IMG/VR virus record: IMGVR_UViG_3300044730_000509
Coordinates: 1 to 43,764 of that record
Source of the DNA: a virus
Reading direction: 5' to 3' (one strand)
Length of the DNA: 43,764 nucleotides
Positions 3,872 to 39,629 of the stretch are shown here, piece after piece (positions within the stretch are counted from its first letter, which is position 1; every line of letters begins with the position of its first letter). A model generated the notes under the pieces. That model was not told the DNA's origin. It saw nothing but the letters and a program-made list of their open reading frames with translations, and searched no databases. The translations under genes and the position numbers were made by a program.

Positions 3872-4384
3872 ATGCTGACGCTTATTTCAACTCTTGGTGG
3901 CTACCTAGTCGCCCTCTTTCCTAGACTGTTTGACCTGCTGCAAGACCGTGCGGACAAGAAGCACGAGCTAGACATCCTGCACATGCAGATGCGCCAGCAG
4001 TTGGCGCTGACAGACAAGGGCTATTCCCCGTCAGACAAGACTGAGGAAGTCCGTGAGAATGATGAGCAGGATCACCAGCAGTATATGGCGCAAATCGGTG
4101 CCATCTACAACAATCAAGAAAAACTATTGGAATCGTCTTCCCAATGGGTAAAAGATATGACGGCGGCTACTCGCCCGTTCGTGACGTTTGTTTTCGTCCT
4201 TGAGTTAGTCCTGATCAACCTGCTGACCATGCTGTGGATCTTTTTGCATGGCAGCACAATCACCTCTGTGGGTGAGTTCATTCAGATCATGGAGATCGTG
4301 TTTGACGCTGACGAAATGGCGCTCTTGGGTACGATCATCGCTATGTGGTTTGGCTCCCGTGGTAACTCGAAGGCTGGCAAGTGA
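3872..4384 (+). CDS. 3TM holin-like protein (GTA-holin type)
   Basis: This 170-residue protein has an N-terminal amphipathic or membrane helix, a soluble charged middle, a strong membrane pair around residues 98-125 (TRPFVTFVFVLELVLINLL) and a third segment near the C-terminus ending MWFGSRGNSK. The spacing and the late FGSRG are typical of the '3TM holin for gene-transfer release' family. It would permeabilise the inner membrane and release the leaderless endolysin encoded next. An AAGGAG at 3861-3866 fits the ATG at 3872 better than the GTG at 3869. It ends overlapping a tiny membrane gene (GTGA). Confidence 0.7.
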   Translation: MLTLISTLGGYLVALFPRLFDLLQDRADKKHELDILHMQMRQQLALTDKGYSPSDKTEEVRENDEQDHQQYMAQIGAIYNNQEKLLESSSQWVKDMTAATRPFVTFVFVLELVLINLLTMLWIFLHGSTITSVGEFIQIMEIVFDADEMALLGTIIAMWFGSRGNSKAGK

Positions 4385-9852: not shown

Positions 9853-11754
9853 ATGGACGTACGCGCAATAGTAGAACTCGTCAAACAAACGCCTGAAGTC
9901 CAGCGCGCAGTCGACATCATTGAAGCGCAGCTTGAGCGCGCGCCAATCATGCCGGAGGATCTGGACGAAATAATCGGCATGCTGGAAGCCGTCGTTCAAG
10001 ACCCGAATCGTTACCCGGAAGTGCGCGCGGCGGCGGTGAAAGACGGCGTCATCAGCGAGCAAGACGCGCCGCAAGAATACGATCCGACATTCGTGTTGGC
10101 TGTGTTGGTGGCACTTTATGGTTACCGTGAGCGGCTCTCGACCAAAGGGTATGCGCGCGGCGGGTTGAAGGTTGCCGGCAGACAGCTTGCCGCAGCAGGG
10201 CGCGGCGGCGACTCAATGCTCGCCCATATCAACCCGCGTGAAGCGGAAATGTTGCGTCGCATGGGCGGCTCAGGCACCGTCAACCCGAACACCGGGTTGC
10301 GTGAATATAAAAGCGGCAAAGGGCTGCTCGGCGCTATCTTGCCGATTGCACTGAACTTCATTGCGCCGGGGTTGGGCGGCGTGATTGGAACTGCATTGGG
10401 TGCGACAGCAGGCAGTGCAGCCGCGACGATGTTGGGCAGTGCGGTGATTGGTGGTGTTAGTTCAGCGCTCACTGGTGGCGACCCATTGAAGGGCGCGCTC
10501 ATGGGTGGCTTGGGCGGCGGTTTGAGCGGTGCTGTCGGCAGCGCCGCGAGCAATACATTGAAGTTGGGTTTAGGGGAAACAGGACAAGCTCTGCTTGGCG
10601 GCGCACTGGTGGGTGGCACAGCTGGCGCGTTGACGGGTGACGGCTTTGTCCGAGGCGCTTTGCAAGGCGCGGCGGGTTCTGGCCTCAGCAAACTCGCAGG
10701 CGGTTTCAGTGGCCCTTCAGCCTTTGAAAAAGGCATCAGCCAAGCCGGTCAAACGATGGGTCAAGCATTGACCGCAGGATTCGACCCGAAGACAGCAGCT
10801 ATCGCTGGCGGTTTGTCTGGGTTGGCGAGCGGCGTTCAAACTAAACTTCAATCAATGAAGCCGTCTGACAACGTCGTCGCGAATTTGAAAGCGCCGGGCG
10901 GTGGTTCATCAGGTCAACTGACTTCATTGCAGCGCGACTTAACTGGCCGGTTTTATGACGCTCAACCGGGCTCGCAGCCATCTTTGACGGGAGCGACAGA
11001 TTTAAGTCGTTTTGGATCAACGTCTGATTACAGCGCATTAACACGGCCCGGCGGCTTAAAAGTCAACGCAGGCGATTTAGACGAACTTTTGGTTCCTTCG
11101 GGCTCAGATGCTGCGTTTTCAGGTGTTGGTAAATTGCGGGGTCTGCAACCTACGCCAACCGGCACAGAAAGCGCGATTCCAAGCGGCACAGAAAGCGCTT
11201 TGCCGGGCTTGAATTTGAAGACCGCAGGAACATTGGCCTTGTTGAGCAGCTTAAAATCTAGCCGCCCACCGGAAGTCAATGCCGCGATAGAAAAGATGTC
11301 TCCAGCGCAACAAGAATATTTCAATCGTCCGAGCATCAAGTGGGATTGGAACAAGTTGCAATCTGACGCGAATGCACAACAAATGTCGTTGAGCCAATAC
11401 ATGTCGACTTATTGGCCACAAATCGCTGCTGGCACTTACAGCATTGAGCCTGCCGCGATGGCCATGGGCGGCATGTACGCGATGGGCGGTGGGCCACTGG
11501 GTGCTGTGGCGCGGCTCGTACGCGGGGGCGGCTCTGGCCGTGACGACACAATCAATGCACGGCTCTCAGACGGCGAATACGTGATGGATGCAGAGACCGT
11601 CGCGATGCTTGGAGACGGATCAGCTGACGAAGGCGCTCGCAGGTTAGACGGCATGCGCGCTCAACTGCGCAAACACAAAGGGAAAACATTGGCGCGCGGC
11701 AAGTTCAGCCCCAACGCCAAGAGCCCACTCGCATACATGAAAGGAGCCGCATAA
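9853..11754 (+). CDS. Glycine-zipper ejection (internal virion) protein with SDGEYV C-terminal motif
   Basis: This 633-residue protein has a short acidic N-terminal helical domain, then (about residues 155-300) a Gly/Ala-rich, alternately hydrophobic region with many GxxxG steps, as in proteins that insert into membranes. The C-terminal 100 residues contain YAMGGGPLGAVARLVRGG and GRDDTINARLSDGEYVMDA. The latter is a motif I recall from many phage virion proteins. It is most likely packed inside the head and ejected with DNA. GAGG at 9843-9846 fits ATG 9853 better than the ATG at 9847 that overlaps the GNAT stop. Confidence 0.65.
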   Translation: MDVRAIVELVKQTPEVQRAVDIIEAQLERAPIMPEDLDEIIGMLEAVVQDPNRYPEVRAAAVKDGVISEQDAPQEYDPTFVLAVLVALYGYRERLSTKGYARGGLKVAGRQLAAAGRGGDSMLAHINPREAEMLRRMGGSGTVNPNTGLREYKSGKGLLGAILPIALNFIAPGLGGVIGTALGATAGSAAATMLGSAVIGGVSSALTGGDPLKGALMGGLGGGLSGAVGSAASNTLKLGLGETGQALLGGALVGGTAGALTGDGFVRGALQGAAGSGLSKLAGGFSGPSAFEKGISQAGQTMGQALTAGFDPKTAAIAGGLSGLASGVQTKLQSMKPSDNVVANLKAPGGGSSGQLTSLQRDLTGRFYDAQPGSQPSLTGATDLSRFGSTSDYSALTRPGGLKVNAGDLDELLVPSGSDAAFSGVGKLRGLQPTPTGTESAIPSGTESALPGLNLKTAGTLALLSSLKSSRPPEVNAAIEKMSPAQQEYFNRPSIKWDWNKLQSDANAQQMSLSQYMSTYWPQIAAGTYSIEPAAMAMGGMYAMGGGPLGAVARLVRGGGSGRDDTINARLSDGEYVMDAETVAMLGDGSADEGARRLDGMRAQLRKHKGKTLARGKFSPNAKSPLAYMKGAA

Positions 11755-26473: not shown

Positions 26474-27154
26474 TCAAGCTCCATAAGGTAGCACGCAACC
26501 AGTCAGGTATTTGTGCCGGGGTTTATTGTGCAACAAAAAGGCCATGAACTCCGCGAGCTGGGTCGGGTCAGTTTCCTCACCGGCCAGCAGGGCGTTGATT
26601 TGATATTGTTCAGCGTATTCGCGCGTCCAGCCGCGATGCTTGATGACTTGTTCCTCGATGTCCTTGGACATTTCGGTACCCTTGAGCTTGTTGGGGCTGA
26701 TGCCAAAGACGGTGATGCCGTGTTTCTTGGTCAGCTCGCGCGCCAGCTGCAGCGTCATGATGTGCGCGGCCCCTTTGGAAGCGTTGTAAGCGAGCGATGT
26801 CGTCATGGGCATGTGCGATGCATTGCTCACGATGTTCAGCACGGTGCCATGCGAACGCTTCAACTCCGGCAGCGCCCACTGGGTCATGCGGTAGATGCCC
26901 TTTGCGTTCACTGTCAAGACGTCATCCCAATCCTCTTCTTGGAAATCTTCCAGCCAGCCTGTGATGTTGATCCCTGCGCAGTTGATCAACACATCCAGCC
27001 GCTCAGGACAGTCACCGTAAGTTTCTTGCGGGTCAACAACGTCATTGCCCTTCTTGCGGTCGAACTCAAACACCTCATGCCCATCGCGGCGCAGTGCCGC
27101 AACAGCCAGCTTGCCGAGCCCGGCCCCAGAGCCGGTGACGAGAATCTTGCTCAT
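26474..27154 (-). CDS. Short-chain dehydrogenase/reductase (SDR)
   Basis: The 226-residue enzyme has the cofactor motif TGSGAGLG at 7-14, NCAG at 58-61, Asn83, Ser110 and the catalytic YNASK at 123-127. It would oxidise or reduce an unknown substrate with NAD(P)H. The AGAAAGGAAAAGC site for its start sits inside the end of the upstream gene. It is followed by the VOC gene with a one-base gap, so the two may form a metabolic pair carried by the phage. Confidence 0.9.
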   Translation of the reverse strand: MSKILVTGSGAGLGKLAVAALRRDGHEVFEFDRKKGNDVVDPQETYGDCPERLDVLINCAGINITGWLEDFQEEDWDDVLTVNAKGIYRMTQWALPELKRSHGTVLNIVSNASHMPMTTSLAYNASKGAAHIMTLQLARELTKKHGITVFGISPNKLKGTEMSKDIEEQVIKHRGWTREYAEQYQINALLAGEETDPTQLAEFMAFLLHNKPRHKYLTGCVLPYGA

Positions 27155-33290: not shown

Positions 33291-33450
33291 TATCCGGTTT
33301 CGCTCAACCGTACCGTATTTTCGCTGGGAAAATCAGGTCACGGCAACATATTTTTGAATGCCCCTGCAAAATGCAGGGTCTTTCCTAGGCTGGCGCACTC
33401 CCCTGCGGTAAACTGGGCGAGCCCAAGATGCCCGAGAATACCCCTTCCAA

Positions 33451-33469: not shown

Positions 33470-34399
33470 ATGAAGGAAAATGAAGCATTTCTGGCCGATT
33501 TGGCCAGAGGGTTGGCCCCGGACGAGCGCCTTATCTTGTGCGGCTTCCCCGGTGACCCTTACGCCGCTGGCCCGGCGGCTTGGCGGCCCCGGCCATGGAA
33601 GGTGGGCGCTGAGGTGCCATTCGGGCCGCTGGACAACGCCTACGTGACCGTGGGCGCGTTCAAGCGCGCCACCGACGGTACCTACCGCCGCCGCACCGAG
33701 ACGTTCACCGCTGGCTTGGCGCTCATGGTGGACGATGTCGGCACAAAGGTTGACCGGACATTTGTGGAGGCAATGCAGCCAACTTGGAAGATTGAAACTT
33801 CTCCCGGCAACGAACAGTGGTGGTACTTCTTGCAAGAACCTGAGCGCGACATGGCGCGGTTCGATGGGCTTATACGCGCGTTCATTCACGGCAAGCTCCT
33901 GGGCGCGGATCCAGGGATGAGCGGCGTGACACGTGTGGGCCGGTTGCCCGGACACTTGAATGGCAAAAAGGCCTACAACGGCTGGACAACGCGCGTGACG
34001 GAGGCCAACGGCACCCGGTGGACGCCGCAAGAACTCCTGGACGGCTTCGGGCTGCAAATCCGTGGACAAAGAGTCACGCGGGAAAAGTTGCCGACGGAGG
34101 AAGCGTTAGAGCGCAACCGCATGTTCATGAATGTCTACAAGTGGCTCGACCAGCGCAACATGCTCAAGCGTCATGAACCTGACCCCAGCGGTTGGACAGA
34201 GATGACTTGCCCATGGGTGGGTGACCACACTGGCGGCGTCGACAGCGGGGCCGCGATACGTGAGCCAGCGCCTGAGAACGATTATTACGGTGCCTTCAGG
34301 TGCCACCATGGACATTGTGTCAACAAGGGTTGGTCGCAGTTGACGGAATGGGTGAACGAAGAATCAATCGAAGAACTGGAAAGGGCCGCGCATGAATGA
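33470..34399 (+). CDS. PrimPol / RepB-like DNA primase
   Basis: The 309-residue protein has the archaeo-eukaryotic primase-like order of motifs: LALMVDDVGTKV (Asp88, Asp89) as metal motif I, then ETSPGNEQWWYFLQEP and GVTRVGRLPGHLNGK, the R-LPG-xxN-K pattern of RepB-type primases. A C-terminal Cys/His cluster (TCPWVGDH ... FRCHHGHC) forms a likely zinc knuckle near residue 285. It would prime DNA synthesis for the phage replisome. An SF3 helicase two kb downstream is the natural partner. It overlaps the next small gene by eight bases. Confidence 0.7.
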   Translation: MKENEAFLADLARGLAPDERLILCGFPGDPYAAGPAAWRPRPWKVGAEVPFGPLDNAYVTVGAFKRATDGTYRRRTETFTAGLALMVDDVGTKVDRTFVEAMQPTWKIETSPGNEQWWYFLQEPERDMARFDGLIRAFIHGKLLGADPGMSGVTRVGRLPGHLNGKKAYNGWTTRVTEANGTRWTPQELLDGFGLQIRGQRVTREKLPTEEALERNRMFMNVYKWLDQRNMLKRHEPDPSGWTEMTCPWVGDHTGGVDSGAAIREPAPENDYYGAFRCHHGHCVNKGWSQLTEWVNEESIEELERAAHE

Positions 34400-35530: not shown

Positions 35531-37039
35531 ATGACAACAATCGAGGAAAGGACCGCCGCCAGAGAAGCGGCGCTGGCAGCAGCCGTGGCAGCTTCCCGGC
35601 GGCTCGCGCGGCCAGAGGATTACGTATTCGACAAAGCGCAAGAGGCATTTTGGGACTTGCGTGATGGGACACAGCATTCTGAAAAAGCGGTCGACGCTTC
35701 CATCCCTATCGAGCTTTGGCGAGTTGAAGTGGAAGAAGCCGAAGAGGAAGCACCAGCCGAAGGACGGCGTGGCCGTGGGCGGCGTCGACGTGAACGGCTC
35801 ATCCCGCCTTCGCGCGACATCATGCGCGTTGAAAATGATCAGTTCGTCGAAGGTAGCACATGGTGGCCCGGTGAGCCGCAAATCATCAAGGATATATTTA
35901 TAGATTCCAACGGCTGGCGTCCAGCGCTGGGCCGGAGGATCTACAACAAATACCTGCCGCCGCCCGAACTCACTGGCGACGCTGCGCAAGCGGTTGTTTG
36001 GGTCAACCACGTACGCAAGCTCTGGCCCGACCCGGTCGAGCATGAGTTCTTCTTCGACTTCTGCGCGCATATGGTCCAGCGCCCCGACGTGAAGTGCAAC
36101 GCTGCAATCGTCTTGAGCGGCACACAAGGCATCGGTAAAGATGCGGCGTTGATGCCAGTGAAAGCCGCAGTGGGCAACTGGAACACCAAGAACATCGACC
36201 CCGACGAGCTGTTCTCTCCTTACAAGCCGTGGCTGGAAACTTTGATGCTCGTGGTCGACGAAGTGCGCCCGACGAAGGATGAGTTCCATGCGTCGTCAGC
36301 TTACAATATTCTTAAGCCAATGATCGTCGCGCCACCCGACACGCTGCCGCTGAACGACAAATACGCAAAGTTGCGGCACATCATCAACCGGCTGCGCGTG
36401 TTCATCACGACCAACGACTGGATGAGCATGTACATCCCACCCGAAGACCGCCGCATGTTCATCATGCACTCTCACCTGCCACAAAAGTGGCATGAGAAAG
36501 AAAAACAACCAGCCTACTTCAATGAGCTGTTCGCATGGTTCGAAAGTGGCGGCATCAACCACGTAGCCGCGTGGCTGACGGCGAGAGACCTCTCGGCGTT
36601 CGACCCCAAGGCACAAATCGCTCGCACAGCCGGGTGGGGCGCTGTGGCGGCTTCCTGGGGTGAGCCTGAGGACGCTGTCGCTTGGGTGCTTGACCAGCTG
36701 GGCAACCCACCGGCCATCCTCGGACAAGAACTTGTCAACCCACAATTCGACCACCGCGAAGAAGTTGCCAACATGCTCAAGTCGCCGCGCAAGATTTCTC
36801 ACCGCATGAACCGCGCTGGCTACGTCAATGTGCCTGCACCGGGCGGCGCTGACCGATGGGTCTTCCGCTCGGAAGGCAAAACGCTGCGCGCGAGATATGC
36901 CTTTGTGCGCGGAGAGCTGACGCGTGATATCGATGCCGCGACCGAGCTTGTGCGCAAAAGAGGAGAAGAATTGCTCGCCGCACAATCCCAAGATGGGGGA
37001 AATGTGGTCGTTTTGGAAGCAAAGAAGGGTGGATTCTGA
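35531..37039 (+). CDS. SF3-type replicative helicase (DUF5906-like)
   Basis: The 502-residue protein has Walker A GTQGIGKD at 197-204, Walker B LMLVVDEV (Asp243, Glu244) and a sensor/Arg-finger stretch (RVFITTNDW; PPEDRRMF). This matches the DUF5906/NrS-1-like helicase domain of phage primase-helicases. The Walker A Lys is followed by Asp rather than Thr or Ser, seen in this group. A basic low-complexity stretch (GRRGRGRRRRER) lies near residue 78. With the separate primase it should open and prime the origin. Its stop codon runs into the repeat region at 37036. Confidence 0.75.
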   Translation: MTTIEERTAAREAALAAAVAASRRLARPEDYVFDKAQEAFWDLRDGTQHSEKAVDASIPIELWRVEVEEAEEEAPAEGRRGRGRRRRERLIPPSRDIMRVENDQFVEGSTWWPGEPQIIKDIFIDSNGWRPALGRRIYNKYLPPPELTGDAAQAVVWVNHVRKLWPDPVEHEFFFDFCAHMVQRPDVKCNAAIVLSGTQGIGKDAALMPVKAAVGNWNTKNIDPDELFSPYKPWLETLMLVVDEVRPTKDEFHASSAYNILKPMIVAPPDTLPLNDKYAKLRHIINRLRVFITTNDWMSMYIPPEDRRMFIMHSHLPQKWHEKEKQPAYFNELFAWFESGGINHVAAWLTARDLSAFDPKAQIARTAGWGAVAASWGEPEDAVAWVLDQLGNPPAILGQELVNPQFDHREEVANMLKSPRKISHRMNRAGYVNVPAPGGADRWVFRSEGKTLRARYAFVRGELTRDIDAATELVRKRGEELLAAQSQDGGNVVVLEAKKGGF

Positions 37040-37261
37040 TCCCGAGATTGACGCAGAATGAATTTCGATGAGAGCCGCAGGAATAATAGTCGTCTCGGGC
37101 AACTTGGGATCCTGATCCCGAGATTGAAGCATAATCCCAAAAATCCCAAGATAGTAATTGTTGGATAATTTTGTGTTAATTTGTATTAAATTAAGAAAAA
37201 GAGAAGAATAGGAAATCTCGGGCATCTCGGAATCTCGGGATTTGGCGGCGTACCCGAGATT
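37036..37261. repeat. Iteron-like repeats: candidate replication origin
   Basis: CCCGAGATT occurs at 37041-37049, 37117-37125 and 37253-37261, and its reverse AATCTCGGG at 37214-37222 and 37231-37239. Near copies lie at 37092-37099 (GTCTCGGG), 37223-37231 (CATCTCGGA) and 37146-37154 (CCCAAGATA). A 16-base unit, CTGATCCCGAGATTGA, repeats exactly at 37036 and 37112. GGGATC-CT-GATCCC (37106-37119) is a small palindrome. Between the left and right clusters lies an A+T-rich stretch (about 37141-37210). Repeats around an unwinding zone beside primase and SF3 helicase genes fit an origin; an operator is the alternative. Confidence 0.6.
37161..37189 (+). promoter_or_regulatory. Weak candidate promoter inside the A+T-rich core
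   Basis: TTGGAT (37161-37166) and TATTAA (37184-37189), 17 bases apart, match the sigma-70 boxes at 3/6 and 4/6. A+T-rich DNA gives such matches by chance, and the following terminase gene starts 200 bases away. From 37262 to 37390 I see no gene or strong signal beyond a weak hairpin. Confidence 0.2.
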
Positions 37262-37390
37262 TAGGAAACTTTTTATGCTTTGTGCGAAATAGAAACGCGC
37301 GGCGAAAATGTTGCCGGAAGAACAGAGCGCGGCGATAATCGCGCGAAGAATGCTGTTTGAAGCATTTTCAATAAAACTTTAGGATCAAAT

Positions 37391-37810
37391 ATGGCTGGCG
37401 TGAAGGGTCGTAGTGGCAGACCACCGGGCAGCGGCGGTCGTCCTCCTGGCGTTTTGAACAAAACAACGCGCGCGGCGCGTGAAGCCATCGCGGCGTTTGT
37501 TGACGACAATGCTCCGCGCATGCAGGAGTGGCTGGACAAGGTTGCGCAGGGCGTGCCTCGTGTTGATGCGGATGGCAATCAGTTGCACGATGAAGACGGC
37601 AACCCGATGTGGTTCCATCCACCCAACCCTGAGAAGGCGTTCAACATGCTCAAGGATGTGGTTGAGTATCACGTGCCCAAGCTCGCTCGCAGCGAGGTCA
37701 CTGGTGCAGGCGGCGGCCCGATTAGTGTGGCGGCCATCGACATGAAAGGGTTGTCTGACGCCGAGCTGGAAACAATGCAGCGGCTCTTGGCGAAAGCGAG
37801 CGACGCATGA
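37391..37810 (+). CDS. terS: Terminase small subunit
   Basis: The 139-residue protein has the DUF5681-like start (GVKGRSGRPPGSGGRPPGV then NKTTRAAREAIAAF), a Gly/Pro/Arg-rich DNA-contact arm followed by a helix, and an acidic linker and helical C-terminus. This is the usual small terminase of phages with this kind of large subunit, which lies 247 bases downstream. It would recognise the packaging site. The site AGGATCAAAT precedes the ATG, and it overlaps the next gene by ATGA. Confidence 0.75.
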   Translation: MAGVKGRSGRPPGSGGRPPGVLNKTTRAAREAIAAFVDDNAPRMQEWLDKVAQGVPRVDADGNQLHDEDGNPMWFHPPNPEKAFNMLKDVVEYHVPKLARSEVTGAGGGPISVAAIDMKGLSDAELETMQRLLAKASDA

Positions 37811-38058
37811 GCATCGACCGCACGCCAGTCGGTGCTGAAACAGAAGTGATCGAGGAATGGCTGCGGCAGTTCGGTGAATTGCAAGAAACATCCGAAGGCA
37901 CAGCGGTGGTGCTCACAACAGAGCTGTTGCGCGAATACGCCGAGTGGGTTGCGGCTTGTCAGCGCGAATGTATCGCTCAGGTGTTGGAGCGGATGCCTGA
38001 TGGTTACTGGGCGAACAACTGCGCGATGGCTATACGCATGATGAGGGCGCAACACTGA
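37807..38058 (+). CDS. Small protein between terminase genes, unknown
   Basis: The 83-residue protein is acidic and helical (EVIEEWLRQFGELQETSEG; LLREYAEWVAACQREC) with a Met-rich end. It is coupled to terS by ATGA and to terL by TGATG, so it may be a packaging accessory. No motif identifies it. Confidence 0.6.
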   Translation: MSIDRTPVGAETEVIEEWLRQFGELQETSEGTAVVLTTELLREYAEWVAACQRECIAQVLERMPDGYWANNCAMAIRMMRAQH

Positions 38059-39629
38059 TGAATGCTCCATTGAGCCCTGCTGTGATGTTGGACGCGATAC
38101 GCCGTGAGAAAGACCGGCGAGCGGCGTCTGCATCATTGTACGAGTTCGTGAAGCAAGCATGGCCGATTGTCGAGCCGGGTGTGCCGTTCATTGCCAGCTG
38201 GCACATCGAAGTCATCTGTGAGCACTTGGAAGCGATCAGCTCAGGCGAGCTCCGCAAGCTGCTCGTCAACATCCCACCGCGACACTCCAAATCTACCATC
38301 GTGAGCGTTATGTTCCCGATGTGGGAGTGGCAAGTGTCGCCTGAGCAAAAGTATCTGTGTGCGAGCTACAGCGGCACACTCTCCATCCGCGACAACCTGA
38401 AGGCGCGGCGGCTCGTGCAGAGCCCATGGTACCAAGAGCGTTGGGGCCAGCTGTTCGAGCTCGCTGGTGACCAGAACGCCAAGCAGCGTTTCGAGAACGA
38501 CAAGACAGGCTACCGGCTCGCCACCAGCGTTGGCGGTACGGCCACTGGTGAAGGCGGCTCGCGGTTGTTGCTTGATGATCCGCACTCAGCGCAAGAAGCT
38601 CAGTCTGACGTGATCCGTCAGAGCGCGCTGGAATGGTTTGACGTTGTTTGGTCGACGCGACTCAACGATCCCAAGCGTGACGCGATGATCACCATCATGC
38701 AGCGGCTGCACGAAAAAGACATCAGCGGACACATCCTTGAGGACATTGGCGGCTGGGAACACTTGATGATCCCGGCTGAGTGGGATGGTGTGCGTCGCAA
38801 GACGATCCTGGGCTCATACGACCCGCGCACGACAAAGGGCGAGCTTATCTGCGCAGAGCGCTTCGGTGAAAAAGAAATCACCGAGCTCAAGCAGCTGCTC
38901 GGCGTTTACGGCACTGCGGGTCAGCTGCAGCAAGATCCGCAACCGGCTGAGGGCGGCATTCTCAAGACCAAGTTCCTGCGGCTCTGGCCGCACGACAAAG
39001 GGTTGCCGCAGTTCGAATATGTCTTGCAGTCGTATGATTGCGCGTTCACTGAGAAGACGACTGGCGACCCAACGGCTTGCAGCGTTTACGCCGTGTTCAC
39101 GCTCGACAACGAGCGGCACGTGATGTTGATCGACGCATGGGATGAGCATTTGTCGTACCCTGAGTTGCGCACAAGGGCGATCAGGGATTGGCAGACAGAG
39201 TACGGCGGCACGACGGTCAAGGATGGGTTGCGCGCGGCCCGGCGGCCTGACCGCGTGTTGGTCGAGGCAAAGGCGTCAGGCCAGTCACTCTTGCAAGACC
39301 TGCGGCTCGCGAAGGTGCCAGCTATCGGCTACAACCCCGGCAACGCGGACAAGGTCTCGCGCGCGCATCAGGCGGCCCCAACACTGGAGCTCGGCTACGT
39401 TTGGGTTCCTGAGAGCGGCAAGAACATCGGCCATGCGGTGAGCTGGGCGTTGCCGTTCATCAAGCAGCTCGAGAAGTTCCCTGTGGCCGAGCATGACGAC
39501 TATGTCGACACGTTCACTCAGGCGATCATTTACCTCAAGAACGATGGTTGGTTCGACTTGCCCAAGGCACGCGACCCAGACGAACCCAAGCAGTGGAAGC
39601 GTGAAAGGATCAATCCTTATGCAGCCTAA
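38058..39629 (+). CDS. terL: Terminase large subunit
   Basis: The 523-residue motor protein has Walker A NIPPRHSKST (71-80), Walker B LLLDDP (170-175) and a C-terminal RNase H-like nuclease. The nuclease shows YDCAFTEKTTGD for the first Asp, VLVEAKASGQSLLQDL in the middle and HDDYVDTFTQAIIYL with the last Asp residues. It pumps DNA into the procapsid and cuts concatemers. PPRHSKS is the P-loop typical of the T4-like/phage terminase group with 'RHxKS'. Confidence 0.95.
   Translation: MNAPLSPAVMLDAIRREKDRRAASASLYEFVKQAWPIVEPGVPFIASWHIEVICEHLEAISSGELRKLLVNIPPRHSKSTIVSVMFPMWEWQVSPEQKYLCASYSGTLSIRDNLKARRLVQSPWYQERWGQLFELAGDQNAKQRFENDKTGYRLATSVGGTATGEGGSRLLLDDPHSAQEAQSDVIRQSALEWFDVVWSTRLNDPKRDAMITIMQRLHEKDISGHILEDIGGWEHLMIPAEWDGVRRKTILGSYDPRTTKGELICAERFGEKEITELKQLLGVYGTAGQLQQDPQPAEGGILKTKFLRLWPHDKGLPQFEYVLQSYDCAFTEKTTGDPTACSVYAVFTLDNERHVMLIDAWDEHLSYPELRTRAIRDWQTEYGGTTVKDGLRAARRPDRVLVEAKASGQSLLQDLRLAKVPAIGYNPGNADKVSRAHQAAPTLELGYVWVPESGKNIGHAVSWALPFIKQLEKFPVAEHDDYVDTFTQAIIYLKNDGWFDLPKARDPDEPKQWKRERINPYAA

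Follow-up and report, generated by a model that had tools for sequence, protein, structure and literature searches.

The stretch of viral DNA analysed here (the window, 43,764 nucleotides, positions 1 to 43,764 of IMG/VR record IMGVR_UViG_3300044730_000509) raises the question of what a dense cluster of short repeats is doing between a set of replication genes and the terminase genes. Upstream lie the genes for a RepB-type (PF16793) DNA primase (33470-34399, + strand) and an SF3/D5-type helicase (DUF5906; 35531-37039, +). Downstream is a gene for a small protein (37391-37810, +) with no function match in the profile library, called terS from its position directly before the gene for the terminase large subunit (terL; Terminase_6C / phrog_38; 38058-39629, +). 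As the early genes include DNA polymerase III alpha, an RNase-T-fold exonuclease, ThyX and an SNF2-type helicase, the phage carries much of its own replication machinery. A sequence-only reading had proposed that the cluster is an origin bound by a phage initiator, with an operator as the main alternative. The comparative evidence argues for the former: the cluster is probably the phage replicator, a dyad-shaped origin bound by the SF3 helicase, which is thus the proposed initiator, and organised like the origins of PICIs and SaPIs and the crr element of P4.

The repeats themselves were all recovered. The 9-mer CCCGAGATT occurs exactly at 37041 (+), 37117 (+), 37214 (-), 37231 (-) and 37253 (+), three forward and two reverse copies as had been reported, and is absent from the rest of the 43,764-base record, for which chance predicts 0.25 copies (0.0013 per 226 bases). 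The claim that this density is far above chance was borne out by block-wise dinucleotide shuffles, none of 200 of which had any 9-mer at five copies inside 230 bases. The 16-base direct repeat, CTGATCCCGAGATTGA, was found at 37036-37051 and 37112-37127, an offset of 76, together with the small palindrome, GGATCC. The interval of 226 bases holds these repeats as described but is not fully non-coding, positions 37036-37039 still being the stop region of the helicase gene. A matrix built from the iteron copies located ten sites in the cluster, one at 36986 in the end of the helicase gene and a tandem pair at 33421/33430 in the leader of the primase gene.

Within the cluster the functional unit is sharper than first drawn and consists of two forward iterons, an A+T-rich core and three reverse iterons in a 9-base phase. 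The inner left arm (37133-37152, +), which has a homologous arm in relatives, is formed by two tandem iterons, AATCCCAAA-AATCCCAAGAT, 9 bases apart (matrix positions 37135 and 37144). The core is a candidate unwinding region of 58 bases with 79% A+T, bounded by a conserved left edge element, TAATTGTTGG (37155-37164, +), and a conserved right edge element, GAGAAGAATAGG (37201-37212, -; reverse complement CCTATTCTTCTC), the latter replaced in other relatives by AACAATAGG, i.e. CCTATTGTT. The inner right arm (37213-37241, -) holds three tandem reverse iterons (AAATCTCGGGCATCTCGGAATCTCGGGAT), 8-9 bases apart (matrix positions 37214, 37223 and 37231). The A+T-rich stretch that had been noted between repeat clusters can be placed at 37155-37212, but the organised core spans 37133-37241 and leaves the five exact copies partly outside. 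Further copies lie around it: ATCCCGAGATT at 37039-37049 (+), within the 16-base repeat and overlapping the helicase stop codon, and again at 37115-37125 (+); a reverse pair from the matrix scan, GCCCGAGACG and TCCCAAGTTG, at 37091-37109 (-); ACCCGAGATTT at 37252-37262 (+); and an iteron-like AATCCCAAGATG at 36984-36995 (+) in the 3' end of the helicase gene. GC skew showed no turn at the dyad; its minimum, ~6 kb off, tracks gene direction and supports neither side.

Relatives were sought in IMG/VR, which yielded 40 helicase loci and 56 primase loci. The dyad was found to be conserved together with the primase/helicase module, its plan being kept in about 25 of these relatives while the iteron sequence changes. 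The shared order 3' of the helicase gene is forward iterons, a CTAATTGTTGG-like edge, the A+T-rich core, a (G)AGAAGAATAGG or AACAATAGG edge and reverse iterons. Core length in 27 related dyads was 55-61 bases in 14, 63-72 in eight and 74-106 in the five most divergent. The iteron is CCCGAGATT in the window group, ACCAAGATT/ACCGAGAT in L027/L028, CCTGAG-like in L029 and L069, GTCCTGAGA in L032, TTCCCAAGA in L082, TTGCCTCGCA in L090, ACCCATAGA in L087 and GTACCATGT in L088. The relatives were scored without a motif, since most of them escaped a strict regular expression for the core. In a scan of whole contigs for repeats the dyad ranked top in G000, G002 and G020; in some other contigs it was outscored by coding repeats. 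Two matches in the cellular collection were on contigs filed under beta-proteobacterial MAGs. A DNA search of 50,697 phage records gave no match, so that named relatives were reached by protein only.

The position of the dyad directly 3' of the helicase gene, as in the window, is shared by most relatives. The exceptions are the rearranged genomes G007 and G026, in which it adjoins terS, ~2-3 kb from the primase gene and away from the helicase end, and G011/G012, in which a stretch reading as an inverted gene separates it from the helicase gene. In L015, L020 and L024-L026 a lineage-specific insertion, which reads as an inverted gene, lies between helicase and dyad, and in L012/L013 an ORF with a GIY-YIG-like start (judged by eye) is inserted between the dyad and terS.

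The two arms of the dyad drift together. Among 18 divergent dyads (including BPP-1, MW202483 and P4 crr, with cores placed by eye), the two arms of the same dyad shared 154 six-mers as reverse complements against 37 expected in mixed pairs (permutation p about 1e-5), with arms weakly symmetric in the stretch tested in L017, L086 and L070. The pooled arms were phased, with an identity of 0.42 at lag 9 and 0.36 at lag 18 compared with a highest value of 0.30 in 300 shuffles. Iteron divergence followed residues 380-460 of the helicase (36668-36910, +), a predicted winged-helix-like domain and the proposed iteron reader, better than it followed the ATPase, N-terminus, linker, C-tail or primase (n=22; similar at n=24). 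The Mantel correlation was 0.67 for this domain, 0.51 for the ATPase and 0.49 for the primase; the partial correlation was 0.51 for the domain given the ATPase (permutation p 0.001) and 0.14 for the reverse, in sequences related by descent whose kinship is only partly controlled by such conditioning on other domains. The faster-evolving domain may correlate better partly through less saturated distances, but the still faster C-tail does worse.

The structure model of the helicase had a mean pLDDT of 83.5, and the order of helices and strands in its C-terminal part is of the winged-helix type, with helix 419-428 at the recognition position. Foldseek placed the whole model nearest, among solved folds, to the helicase region of phage NrS-1 (E 9e-17) and the SaPI5 primase-helicase (E 7.5e-9), and also matched pox D5/E5. 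The isolated C-terminal domain had no significant match in the PDB (best E 0.07), and the label of winged helix accordingly rests on element order and family analogy. A residue-to-base code in the recognition helix was sought by eye and none was found, as relatives whose iterons are of the CCCGAG type and those whose iterons are of the ACCAAG type share the central helix KSPRKIxHRM unchanged. In profile comparisons with hhalign the BPP-1 primase gave no significant match.

Taken with the conservation of the dyad beside the primase and helicase genes, the co-varying arms and a divergence that tracks the helicase C-terminus and not the terminase, these observations favour, at the level of sequence comparison, the proposal of an origin bound by a phage initiator. 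The C-terminal winged-helix-like domain would read the iterons, one helicase assembly would be loaded on each arm, face to face, and the opposed assemblies would melt the ~58-base core. The RepB-type primase could then start the leading strands, which the phage DNA polymerase III alpha would extend. The primase belongs to the same RepB_primase family (PF16793) as the RepB' primase of RSF1010 oriV. RSF1010 differs in that its initiator, RepC, and its helicase, RepA, are separate proteins and that it uses hairpin ssi sites for priming.

That the helicase binds both arms and opens the core is suggested by analogy with SaPI Rep and the PICI origins. The C-terminus of SaPI Rep binds iterons directly downstream of the rep gene, apparently as two hexamers (PMC7581432), and PICI origins consist of two iteron sets flanking an A+T-rich region, a layout that has been called unique to PICIs (PMC6092414). 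The phages studied here share with these elements the two iteron sets around an A+T-rich core, the usual place of the dyad directly 3' of the helicase gene, and an AAA+/SF3-D5 helicase related, distantly, to SaPI Rep. From the co-variation, the C-terminal domain of this helicase is the proposed reader of the iterons. The phages differ in having their own polymerase genes, a separate RepB-type primase, conserved edge elements and an iteron pair in the primase leader. Unlike PICIs they are not satellites: the window has its own terL, and full-length contigs of relatives carry terS, terL and portal genes.

The comparison with P4 provides the alternative that survives best, although it is unlikely: the dyad could be a helicase-bound element required in cis, like crr, with synthesis starting elsewhere. 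P4 crr has forward iterons at 4314 and 4323, an A+T-rich core and reverse iterons at 4366 and 4384; it thus matches the dyad in its mirror-oriented, 9-spaced iterons and in lying immediately downstream of the helicase gene, alpha, while the annotated P4 origin is ~4.7 kb away. The alpha protein is described as having a C-terminal origin-binding winged helix (Yeo 2002, as cited in PMC4234260). The systems are not the same, since P4 has that separately annotated origin, crr is a double 120-base repeat, a Toprim primase is fused into alpha where the window has a separate RepB-type primase gene, and by profile the window helicase does not match alpha significantly (E 0.29). Against such a division of labour, the equivalent PICI region together with pri-rep is sufficient to support a plasmid (PMC6092414), and in the window record no other iteron cluster is combined with an A+T-rich core; the one further tandem pair is that in the primase leader.

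This leader pair, GCCCAAGATGCCCGAGAAT (33421-33439, +; matrix scan), bears on a second alternative, that a phage repressor or activator binds the cluster as an operator array and so controls terS and the late genes. The pair is the only same-strand pair with 9-base spacing outside the dyad in the window. A tandem pair 9 bases apart precedes the primase gene in most relatives (it is absent in L059 and L057) and co-varies with the dyad (p 0.0025), following the iteron of its own dyad as, for example, CACCGAGATCACCGAGAAT in L079. In the window and relatives it overlaps GAGAAT/GACAAT just before the primase ribosome-binding site. It is a probable autoregulatory operator, through which the helicase might throttle its own operon. 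The operator idea of the sequence-only reading thus seems to hold for a second site that it had not listed, but not for the cluster. In favour of an operator at the cluster, the leader iteron overlaps a possible -10 box (GAGAAT) and a promoter-like TTGCCG-17-GATAAT precedes terS (37311-37339, +), but promoter-like sites are no commoner than chance predicts. A mirror-symmetric arrangement of sites about a core with conserved edges is not something that an operator requires; the iterons drift with the helicase, and the array disappears when the helicase does, not when terL does. The cluster is therefore very unlikely to be an operator array.

A packaging site beside terS, whether cos or a pac-like array to which the small terminase subunit binds, is highly improbable. 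Arrays of repeats close to terS are a usual mark of packaging sites, and the dyad does lie directly before terS or an HNH gene in most genomes and is still beside terS in the rearranged G007 and G026. However, among contigs with terL at least 80% identical to that of the window the dyad follows the helicase: all seven that show the helicase and cover at least 3.4 kb of upstream sequence had the dyad (six) or at least its iterons (L155), compared with 0/20 where no close helicase was present in at least 4.3 kb upstream. L177, L171 and L162 have the dyad with only 1.9-2.6 kb upstream in view and are by sequence of the rearranged G026 type. The dyad is also kept in relatives whose terminases have no detectable relation to that of the window, among them G015, G018, G030 (L069) and G025 (L040). 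These four contigs stop just past the HNH gene, G030 and G025 at the homologous sequence CCCTAGGRCRAAAC, and G015, G018 and G030 start with terS-terL at the opposite end, which places cos beyond the HNH gene and apart from the dyad. As a cos/pac site the dyad was rejected, as it neither travels with the terminase genes nor lies at genome ends. Metagenome contig ends can in this way reveal the position of cos. Upstream of terL, three terL relatives (L212, L214 and L225) have instead a long inverted repeat, AACGTGGTAA...TTACCACGTT, enclosing an A+T-rich core that contains GAGGAGAATATAGGG; this is perhaps another type of origin. Of the three, L212 and L225 also show a distant helicase.

A partition (centromere-like) site or an RNA element is barely conceivable: partition sites can consist of iteron arrays, but no parA/parB-like gene was seen among the ORFs scanned (part of all ORFs), and an Rfam search of the cluster gave no match up to E 1.

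Few tailed-phage origins have been located outside model phages, and the replicator proposed here would be one recognisable from sequence alone, in a phage group with no named DNA-level relative in the phage collection searched. The ~25 natural variants, with their matching helicase domains and leader sites, form a data set on how an initiator helicase changes specificity and offer swaps that can be tested. The layout has been known mainly from satellites (P4 and PICIs) and is found here in tailed phages that are not satellites and whose packaging systems are unrelated. A dyad of this kind seems to be present in phage BPP-1 as well. For Bordetella phage BIP-1/BPP-1 the stem-loop type of origin of pRN1 has been invoked; repeats were searched, and a stem-loop beside the replication gene was preferred (PMC4234260). 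The pRN1 system resembles that of the window in its prim-pol, SF3 helicase and winged helix and in an origin 3' of the replication gene, but its stem-loop lacks iterons. BPP-1 has between its primase-helicase (replication) gene and the HNH-terS-terL block (L132 2601-2720; NC_005357 ~26600-26720, the dyad itself near 26600-26690) a mirror-image 9-base dyad, TTTGCCTCG-TTTGCCTCG / CGAGGCAAA-CGAGGCAAA, of which no description as an origin was seen in the papers retrieved. The window group and BPP-1 would then be exceptions to the restriction to PICIs claimed in PMC6092414. It is possible, though put forward only tentatively, that mirror-image, 9-base-phased dyads serve as the replicator throughout the tailed phages and satellites that have SF3/D5 helicases, BPP-1 included, that the iterons drift with the helicase winged helix and that the PICI and P4 origins belong here; if so, the layout is no hallmark of satellites. 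When named phages carrying distant SF3 helicases or primases were scanned, a clear dyad emerged in BPP-1 and MW202483; Vibrio 1.185.O and Thiohalocapsa MD04 showed repeat clusters of uncertain type, and AXL_3, PEi21 and Carpasina showed nothing convincing. In MW202483 (L130) a dense array of TGTTTACATAAACA-like palindromes at 10351-10590 lies ~0.5 kb from the CACTACCAA iteron dyad.
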